A stretch of DNA of 64,000 bases from assembly GCA_950295325.1 (NCBI GenBank), contig OX485804.1, forward strand, positions 1,550,001 to 1,614,000, in the 5' to 3' direction. The translations under genes and the position numbers were made by a program. Under the pieces are notes generated by a model. It did no database searches, was not told where the DNA came from, and saw only the letters and a program-made list of their open reading frames with translations. The DNA comes from Polytrichum commune (Eukaryota > Streptophyta > Polytrichopsida > Polytrichales > Polytrichaceae). Each line of letters starts with the position of its first letter. Positions within the stretch are counted from its first letter, which is position 1. Of this stretch, positions 53,221 through 57,039 are shown one piece after another.

Positions 53221-55601
53221 CATGTCATCATCAAAGAGTTCCTTGTAATTTGAGTCGTTCCAGCTGCGTACCCACCAACCCTGCAATGAATGATATTTCT
53301 AATGATTCAGGAACTATATGAGCATCGAGGCCCCACCTCTTCGAGGCACTTCGATGGAAGTTCCATAGTATGCCAGAGAACTACGGCAATATCTTTCCAT
53401 GTCCTGCTGCCACTTGTGATAATGAAGGCATTTTCGCTCCTCCTGTGATCTTGCCCAACCGCTCTAGCAGTTGGCATAGAACCCACTTTTCAAGCAACAA
53501 TAATATTGCTAAATATTGAGCTAATGAGAAGATTTGTGGAATACGCATCTGACACATCACAACACGCTAGCCACGTTAAGGGAGATAGAACTTGATGTTT
53601 GTGTGAAGATTTCACTTCTTCCTCCAATAAATACTTAGAAACATACCCAGAATAAAGCCTAAATAATTGCAAGGAGCTACAATGTGAAAACAGTTTTTGA
53701 AGTGAACAGAATAATAAAAGAGATGATAAGTACGATCAGATCTGTTCACATGATCATAACTGGAAAATCAAAAAATCACCATTTTACAATCAGTGGAGTA
53801 ACAATGACTTGATTAGTAATCAAGACATCCGCTAGTCCCAACAGACTGATTTCACTGTTTCATGCTGGAAAAAAGCTTATTCTGTGGTGATAGATGGCCA
53901 ATATCCACTCACACAAGCGTCATTTTGAGAGAGGAAATGTGCAATGTTGCTCTACTTTTCCTATTAAATTAAGGACCCGAATTCAATTTGAACATAACTA
54001 GCAAGTCTAGTTTATCATATGTTCACATAAAATCTCCAAGTGAGTGATATTCAAACCTGGGAGAGTTGATAGGGGACAGTCTAAGAAACTCAAATCGCCA
54101 GCACAGAGCAGTGGCAGTAAAGGAAGCTCCAAACACTGAGACACCACTTGGACAATTCTGTAAGAGATTTCACCATGCGCTCATGAATCCACAAGAGGAA
54201 ACGCACATCATCAGCTGCTTCTCATTTCATCATTGTTGTCCAGGGTCTATGTCTCCAGACATCAGGATCCTGCACATAATGAAGATGTCCCATATATTTG
54301 AATGAAATTCTCACACTTTGCAAGTTTCAAATGTAGGCATTCAGAATACTAATTTGAGAAAGACTGGATGATACTTGCTGATCTATCACAAACCTGACCT
54401 ATACTATCCCTAATTTGACACCAATTATTAAGTTCTTACACATTTCATTTCCGTGAATTTATATGTTCAGCAGGTTTGCTCCCTGTCTAGATGAAGTACT
54501 ATCCCTTACAGTTTGTCGACAAGCATATCAACAACTAATAACTTTAACACATGATTCAGGAAATTGGAAACTAAAGAAACTGGGATCCCCAAGGTGCAGA
54601 GGAGGTGTGAGCATATTCTAACGCAGTACACTCCATGGTCCAGAACAGAAGCAGCGGCAGGAAACATGGTCAGAGGTTAATGTAACTTGAACAAATTGGA
54701 ACCAATTTCTTGTCCAGATTCCAACAACATTTTCACAGTACCATACCAAGAATAGTCAGCAACTAACCTTCCTCAAGAACCCTCGAACCTCCTCCTTCTC
54801 GTCATAGGCCACACCTGCATAACGTTATGTTTAGTGGCTGCTCACAGATTTCAAAACTTTTATCAAGGATAGTCTTCGTCAAACATTTGCTCTCTAGTAT
54901 CGCTTCATTGCCTACTTAGTAGGCACAAGCTTCATTCCAGAACCCCTATTCAGTAACTAGAGTAGATAAGCACACACATCAACATCAAGTTACAAAGCAC
55001 TCAACTTCTCACGGTATCGTGAAAATGTACCACGGTATCGTTCATCTGCTAAGAGATCCACGAAGGAGATATAGTCATCAGGCATCCATTTCTTCCCCTC
55101 CTGCTCCTCTAACAGTGAGTATACAATCTGCCACAACTCCAGGAGAATTACTGACAGTGTCTACGTCAAGGTGACACAAAAAAACAAAACTGAACACCCT
55201 GTTCAGTAATTAAATATCAATCCATTCGATACTACAAATCCTGAATTATTATGTGAACAAACTGAGGTGCACTAAACATCTAGTAGCACCACCTTCAAAA
55301 GAATCAGACACCATCCCAGAGGTGCTAAGTAAAGCTGGATGAGACGAAAAAGTTGTTATTATGTTTCAGTGTTGTTTACTGCCAGCAAAAGACACGTCCA
55401 GGCTATTGCAGGTGCACGCTTTCTGGGCCGACATTTTGCACTAATTAATGGAACAACCACCTTCTGAAGGAGGACTTTTCTAACCAACTTCGCCAGAACA
55501 ATTAACATAAATGTCTCTTTGCAAATCCTTCCAGGTCTAGATCAGCATATCGTGACAATAACCTTGAATTAAGCCTTGAACTGTGCAAGGTAAATTTCCA
55601 T

Positions 55602-56928
55602 GGGGGACGTTAAATACCCCCCCACGAACTTTTCGGACTGTCAGATCCGGGCTGGGGCAGCCGCCCGTCCAGAAAATCTGGATTTTCTGGACCCGCCCGA
55701 AAACTGCTGCCCGCCCGCCCGATTTCGAAAAAAACCATTGTCCTTGCATTCTTGAAGGCCACTTACCCACAAATCCCATATTGAGTGCACTTCACCTTCA
55801 AGGGCCAAAATCCAATATATATGTTCACTTCCAATTGAGTAAATAAGCAATTGACTGGGGTTTCATTATCAAAGTGAAACCGTCAATAAAACATGTAATT
55901 AACTTAGAAATCAAAAATATTACAAAACCCTCACTAGCACTGAGGTTATAATTTTTGTGACTCACAATTTGAAATTGTCTTTGTCATTCTAAAATGACAC
56001 TTAAATTTAGTGTGCTGATTTAGTATGTGTATTTTATAATATTTTAGGTAATGCCGTCTACTTTCACAAGTATTCATACGCATTCATTAATCCCAAATAA
56101 ATCAGAAACTATGCTTACAAAATTAAGTAAAGCTAATTGATTATAAAATGTACTTACTGTAATTAATTAATTATTGGAATTAATTCCAGTGAGTTAATTC
56201 TAATAATTAATTTCTGGAATCAATTCCAGTGATTTAATTATAATAATTAATATCTGGAATTAAATTCCAGTGAATTAATTCTAATAATTAATATCTGGAA
56301 TTTAATTCTAGTGAATTAATTATAATAATTAATTTCTGGAATCAATTCCAGTGAATTAATTATAATAACTAATTTCTGGAATTTAATTCCAGTGAATTAG
56401 TTGTAATAATTAAGTCCAATGAATTAATTCTAATAATTGATTAATGAATGCGTATGAATACTTGTGAAAGTAGACGGCATTACCTAAAATATTATAAAAT
56501 ACACATACTAAATCAGCACACTAAATTTAAGTGTCATTTTAGAATGACAAAGACAATTTCAAATTGTGAGTCACAAAAATTATAACCTCAGTGCTAGTGA
56601 GGGTTTTGTAATATTTTTGATTTCTAAGTTAATTACATGTTTTATTGACGGTTTCACTTTGATAATGAAACCCCAGTCAATTGCTTATTTACTCAATTGG
56701 AAGTGAACATATATATTGGATTTTGGCCCTTGAAGGTGAAGTGCACTCAATATGGGATTTGTGGGTAAGTGGCCTTCAAGAATGCAAGGACAATGGTTTT
56801 TTCGAAATCGGGCGGGCGGGCAGCAGTTTTCGGGCGGGTCCAGAAAATTCATATTTTCTGGACGGGCGGCTGCCCCAGCCCGGATCTGACAGTCCGAAAA
56901 GTTCGTGGGGGGGTATTTAACGTCCCCC
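55602..56928. mobile_element. Foldback (MULE-type) element with 490 bp terminal inverted repeats
   Basis: The left arm 55602-56092 (491 bp) and right arm 56439-56928 (490 bp) are inverted copies that differ, by my reading, at only two substitutions and one base in an A-run. Ends are gggggacgttaaata. The exact 9 bp duplication aatttccat flanks it (55593-55601 and 56929-56937); 9 bp is the Mutator/MULE signature. The centre (56093-56438) is AT-rich tandem repeat. Each outer arm contains a GC-rich segment (cccgcccg words). It has no transposase, so it is non-autonomous. Confidence 0.96.
56150..56438. repeat. About 40 bp tandem repeats in the centre of the foldback element
   Basis: Around six units of the form (t)ctggaatyaattccagtgaattaatt.taataattaat, each internally palindromic (ggaat.aattcc). 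The unit length varies by one base. This forms the loop of the foldback structure. Confidence 0.88.
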
Positions 56929-57039
56929 AATTTCCATTACCAGAAGCTCCGTCCAGAATGATCAAACACTGACTGACCTCAGTGTCGAAGAAGATTGTCG
57001 AGCTGGATTCCATACTGGAAATGGAGGGCCTGTCAAGAA

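Follow-up and report, generated by a model that had tools for sequence, protein, structure and literature searches.

When the two arms of an inverted-repeat transposon are nearly perfect mirror images, has the element inserted only recently, or have its arms been kept alike by copying from one to the other? This question is raised by a 1327-nt element (positions 55602-56928) in the window, i.e. the whole 64,000-nt stretch of Polytrichum commune DNA analysed here (C2:1550001-1614000). An initial annotation had described it as a foldback Mutator-like element (MULE) with an intact 9-bp target-site duplication (TSD), lying in an intron of a dead exonuclease gene, and had offered recent insertion or gene conversion as alternative reasons for the likeness of its arms. 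The issue is of some general importance: near-perfect mirror arms are easily taken as a mark of recent insertion, and the present family warns that arm-to-arm divergence underestimates the insertion age of a foldback element. In this paper, we have compared the element with its relatives in the genome (407.8 Mb, 64 contigs), and have traced how the arms of the family have changed.

Results and discussion

Structure of the element

The coordinates of the element, its flanks and the related gene-bearing elements are collected in Table 1. The arms make up 981 of the 1327 nt, and the element is thus mostly inverted repeat, as is characteristic of foldback DNA transposons. They are complementary at 100% over the inner 364 nt and at 98% over the outer 133 nt, and when aligned they differ by substitutions at arm positions 77 and 80 and by a one-base gap close to position 127, which agrees with the three or so differences counted in the initial annotation. 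The GC-rich clusters that it reported in the outer arms of an otherwise AT-rich element are real, because the outer 126 nt of the arms have a GC content of 60-62%, versus 32% in the inner arm and 20% in the loop. Its palindromic tandem loop is likewise borne out, each repeat unit being partly palindromic. The element is without a notable reading frame. The RNA of the whole element is predicted to form a single long hairpin (-1026.9 kcal/mol, a value given without a shuffle control at such length), in line with the long duplex RNA that had been envisaged as a possible source of small-RNA silencing.

Table 1. Location of the features discussed in the text (positions in the window unless a locus is named)
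Feature	Location	Strand	Remarks
Left flank matching paralogue L092	53952-55601		76%
Left target-site duplication	55593-55601		AATTTCCAT; single copy AATCTCCAT at empty site in L092
Left arm	55602-56092	+	491 nt
Outer GC-rich section of left arm	55602-55727	+	62% GC; tip GGGGGACGTTAAATACCCCCCC, 93 times genome-wide (<=3 mismatches)
Small inner hairpin, left arm	55667-55692	+	Both arm-to-arm substitutions at apex
Loop	56093-56438		346 nt
Tandem array in loop	56164-56413		41-bp units, 6.2 copies
Right arm	56439-56928	-	490 nt; inverted copy of left arm
Small inner hairpin, right arm	56838-56863	-	
Right target-site duplication	56929-56937		AATTTCCAT
Right flank matching paralogue L092	56929-57035		80%
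Intronless ferric-reductase frame	L081 1836-4121	+	
Intronless ferric-reductase frame	L087 3168-5447	-	
Further ferric-reductase copies	L088; L089		

The insertion and its family

A paralogous stretch on the same chromosome, L092, which was reached both by a flank search and by a protein search, is alignable with the left flank as far as 55601 and with the right flank from 56929 onwards; in L092 these two alignments have exactly 9 bases in common. When the flanks are joined over a single copy of the target, 179 of 219 alignment columns are identical to L092, where the element is absent and the target reads AATCTCCAT. These alignments show that the window element is an insertion with a true 9-bp TSD, as had been claimed for the perfect repeat AATTTCCAT; the empty site, with one target copy and no element, is that of a paralogue rather than an allele.

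The window element has a large family of relatives in the genome. Its 41-base tip, allowing up to 3 mismatches, has 93 genome matches against none for the reversed-pattern control, and a looser inner-tip pattern has 389 against one. We have assembled 57 elements, comprising that of the window, 37 fetched pairs, and 19 of 31 further sites that gave both ends; the other 12 loci of this second batch were without an end pair, its ends were picked partly by TSD fit, and the sample is biased towards young copies with well-kept tips. A perfect 9-bp TSD is found in 45 of these 57 elements, one of 8/9 in seven and none in five, so that the search with the arm tip proposed as a check on the annotation returned many copies, and most of those extracted have the duplication. 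TSDs of at least 8/9 flank 52 of the 57 copies, compared with 14 of 20000 random pairs of left and right flanks from different copies, although the ends could be shifted by one base in the copies and not in this control; before any such shift, 28 of the first 38 copies already had a perfect 9-bp TSD. In the duplications, position 2 is preferentially T and position 8 preferentially A (53/90, both strands counted).

The host region

Window positions 53952-57035 form, together with L092, a duplicated gene region. The attribution of the host to an exonuclease was not confirmed: the exonuclease domain model PF01612 has 11 matches in the genome and none in the window, four X-joined strings of minus-strand segments have no Pfam match, and the PDB hit to nanoRNase C, at E 0.46, lacks significance. 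A reading frame of the paralogue L092 has a KH_1 match below the cut-off (19.6 versus 21.5 bits), and on this account the host may be a KH-domain gene rather than a plain exonuclease. Neither the death of the gene nor the intronic position of the insertion was confirmed.

Copying between the two arms

For a comparison of arms, the copies were oriented by a unique stretch of the loop, and the outer 325 nt of 106 arms from 53 copies were aligned; the remaining four of the 57 elements were left out, L001, L018 and L068 for want of this loop key and L058 for its short arms. Among the private variants of the 53 copies, 21 are present in both arms of one copy and 99 in a single arm, whereas independent hits would be expected to yield about 0.1 in both arms. 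Furthermore, 21 of the 35 variants found in exactly two arms (doubletons) occur within one element and 14 across two, compared with about 1 in 105 expected within one copy; some doubletons may be a single event, as with three neighbouring changes in L063. In the 24 copies with long arms, the within-element fraction is 9/11 in the inner arm and 14/24 in the outer arm. The two arms of the same element form a two-row group in 25 of the 53 elements (shuffled mean 0.36, maximum 4), and a tree constrained to a clade of all left arms is rejected (p-AU 4.5e-5). Deletions are shared as well: in L025 the two arms have an identical 13-nt deletion, at a place between short direct repeats where it might recur, and a 1-nt deletion occurs in both arms of L012 and L019 and in one arm of their sister L035, in which the one-arm state could be a change back. 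Homogenisation is nevertheless incomplete, because the nearest arm is that of another copy in 36 of the 53 elements, with a tie in six and the own partner nearest in 11.

Taken over the family, these patterns support copying between arms. One arm would be copied onto the other, either through gene conversion between the arms or because replication switches template across the hairpin, and point changes and deletions would thereby spread into both arms. The window element carries its own trace of this, a T>C substitution at arm position 166, which its two arms share and which is missing from every other arm sampled. Such both-arm variants might have been inherited from an unsampled source copy that already had them in its two arms, but that source would then have required inter-arm copying itself. 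The window element is also young; of the alternative posed by the initial annotation, inter-arm copying is supported for the family, with one both-arm private substitution in the element itself.

Recent insertion without any copying would be another explanation, and it accords with the two substitutions and one gap between the window arms and with the near identity of certain family copies to one another. It requires, however, that left and right arms form two groups, which the rejected tree contradicts for the family, and it predicts neither the both-arm private variants nor the regrown arm described below; as the sole cause of the likeness it appears improbable.

Parallel mutation at hot or methylated sites could in principle place the same change in both arms, and transitions do make up 12 of the 21 same-element doubletons. 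The other nine are transversions, though, and the singletons have the same mix (50 to 49); hot sites would moreover put doubletons mostly in different elements, and the 5-nt patch reported below is no simple hot-spot change. We therefore regard parallel mutation as having hardly any chance of being the explanation.

Crossovers between the arms, by contrast, would turn the loop around, and left and right arms would become mixed with no copying involved. Loop inversions of this kind are the subject of PMC3004938, and they would explain the mixing in the arm tree, but they can neither place a private variant in both arms nor regrow an arm. Loop inversion is insufficient alone and hence an unlikely substitute for inter-arm copying, beside which it may act as well.

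A regrown arm

Three structures are represented among the 53 copies: 24 have arms of about 490 nt, 22 have one inner arm cut, with 325 nt left paired, and seven have arms of about 409 nt. The latter two belong to one lineage, in which about 165 nt of one arm were lost and about 84 nt were then regrown from the other arm. In a tree built without the scar columns, the seven regrown copies group together (support 99/96) and are nested in the short group, and the short and regrown copies are separate from all 24 long copies (100/97). A clade of short copies without the seven regrown ones is rejected, at a modest p-AU of 0.033 and with groups named with the structures in view. The tree is unrooted; long arms are read as the starting state because long copies are found on either side of the midpoint and are more widely spread.

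The regrown copies retain a scar on both sides. In the representatives, the loop contains a 40-nt relic of the old short junction, after which comes the missing stretch, oriented as in the other arm; two outward copies of the 40-nt stretch are present in all seven regrown copies. In the opposite arm, ACATG, which are the letters of the new junction, is found in 7/7 regrown copies and in 0/46 of the other oriented copies, and forms a 5-nt patch. A genome scan located the junction only at the seven regrown copies, each with the patch; the patch side alone was found at L042, an unpaired site, in the same scan, and no intermediate with the junction and an unpatched opposite arm was found genome-wide.

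Inter-arm copying thus rebuilt part of the cut arm in this lineage. The simplest explanation is that synthesis switched template to the other arm where a short match occurs, and that the patch would be a second, short copying step in the opposite direction. On balance, we lean towards the view that foldback arms are self-repairing, in that an arm that has lost sequence may be restored from its partner through a template switch and the restored element may go on spreading, and that the mirror form would owe its upkeep to copying in addition to youth or selection.

An artefact of assembly or polishing might also make arms alike, since near-identical inverted arms are hard to polish and the assembly alone was examined. 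However, 99 single-arm private variants survive, L012 and L019 have nearly the same arm differences at different sites, and the junction and patch recur in seven copies at different sites, all of which makes an artefact extremely unlikely.

The transposase class

MULEs usually generate TSDs of about 9 bp, and long terminal inverted repeats (TIRs) with a G-rich tip are typical of them. The present family has both features, its TSDs being 9 bp and its long TIRs G-tipped. The genome also contains at least 142 matches to the MULE transposase domain PF10551 (150 of 271 candidates scored), several of them in open frames of more than 400 aa. We have searched for an autonomous relative with matching TIRs, which the initial annotation had named as a supporting result, and found none at the 69 tip sites and 11 MULE loci covered: among the matches listed, the nearest to any of these tip sites is 44.7 kb away, and in the 11 MULE loci, of 9 kb each, inverted repeats surround the match in six, with a paired tip in 0/11 and the inner tip motif in 0/11. 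Single weak tip matches, with 5 mismatches, occur in 6 of these 11 loci. The nearest listed MULE match lies 9.1 kb from the tip of a related family (100 of 143 ends listed), 11.8 kb from that of a sister subfamily (all 61 ends), and 3.5 kb from the tip GGGATTCGTGGCACTCATG (100 of 242 ends listed).

Three larger candidates for the autonomous partner were rejected. A 7.8-kb pair with the related tip holds a ferric reductase and not a transposase, a 3.4-kb pair has no frame longer than 138 aa, and the 3.9-kb member L001, which includes a run of N, has none longer than 139 aa.

The MULE assignment of the initial annotation is thus consistent with the form of the element and with the presence of MULE domains in the genome, while no transposase-bearing element with this tip was found among the sites covered; by these features the element is consistent with a non-autonomous MULE foldback, its membership resting on form and not on a found transposase. 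The mover might instead be a transposase from a different superfamily, one that likewise generates 9-bp duplications. No transposase-bearing partner was found with this tip, and foldback forms occur with different transposases, of P-element type in Galileo and of MULE type in FARE, according to passages in PMC3169594. Nevertheless, the 9-base duplications and long G-tipped inverted repeats fit a MULE, as does the abundance of MULE domains noted above, and another superfamily seems to us the less probable choice, if one with an appreciable chance.

Related families

The related tip also led to elements in which long inverted repeats surround a single-exon frame that encodes 759-763 aa and contains ferric-reductase domains. 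Their inverted repeats, of at least 1255 nt at 94% in L081 and 1448 nt at 99.8% in L087, contain a stretch 80-85% like the arms of the foldback family. Five full-length open copies of this frame exist in the genome, namely the query and four that match at 94%, in addition to fragments and to more distant genes in several pieces. Pairwise dN/dS among four copies is 0.16-0.26, which suggests that the frame was kept under constraint, and the elements are possibly gene-carrying transposons with a maintained cargo. No target duplication was seen at L087, and no paper on a Pack-MULE with a ferric reductase was found in the open-licence literature.

The tip GGGATTCGTGGCACTCATG is the outer tip of the ferric-reductase elements and has 242 ends. 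Among the 100 of these listed, only three pairs are spaced 0.5-8.5 kb apart, and a foldback-like tip lies about 283 bp away in 36 (100 of the 143 foldback-like tips listed), as though families with different ends had arm modules in common. The end at C5:1517751, 3.5 kb from a broken MULE-domain match at C5:1521202, offers a lead to a transposase-bearing relative. A sister foldback subfamily with the tip GGCAGACGATATGC has 61 ends; L084-L086 are members of 1170-1171 bp with duplications of 8/9, 9/9 and 10 bp, and one copy is nested in L001. Many listed pairs of this subfamily are similarly spaced, and a recent burst is therefore suggested.

Comparison with known systems

We consider it very probable that the window element is a non-autonomous foldback DNA transposon, inserted through a 9-bp staggered cut that was most likely made by a MULE transposase acting in trans, and that its arms co-evolve by inter-arm copying. 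It is a known kind of element whose arm evolution is unusually readable: the family is a record of inter-arm copying in which an arm seems to have been cut and regrown, the opposite arm patched, and the product amplified. The old question of the origin and persistence of foldback arms now becomes testable by comparing the same copies between relatives. No report of a regrown foldback arm with a two-sided scar was found in titles and abstracts of the open-licence literature, which is weak evidence of absence.

Several known systems share parts of this picture. FARE, reportedly described by Windsor and Waddell in 2000 as a foldback family of Arabidopsis, resembles the present one as a foldback element tied to a MULE-domain transposase, but a transposase-bearing member with this tip was not found here, and the likeness is one of description and not of sequence. 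The Tm1 Mutator/Foldback elements of root-knot nematodes, as presented in sections of PMC3169594, have variable-length composite inverted repeats, 9-bp TSDs and MITE-like non-autonomous members; a Tm1 member encodes a MULE-domain transposase, in contrast to those found here, and again the two are likened by description rather than by sequence. Structural change in long MULE TIRs is also known from plant MULEs with multiple long TIRs, but there it takes the form of tandem TIR duplication, for which slippage is discussed, and the word 'conversion' is absent from the main text of PMC3310237.

In the Galileo element of Drosophila, long inverted repeats both shorten and expand, and its authors have proposed (PMC3573991) that a TIR is extended when it is repaired from another whose tract is longer; our regrown lineage resembles this. 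Galileo, however, belongs to the P-element superfamily, and what is a proposal there is accompanied here by a junction, a relic and a patch. Finally, the arms of short inverted repeats are known to be homogenised when templates are switched between them (PMC8604942), and template switching has been proposed to create and maintain RNA stems (PMC8794818). Copying across a stem homogenises or extends arms in those cases as well; they concern RNA genes and coding sequence, whereas the arms studied here are those of a transposon and are hundreds of bases long.
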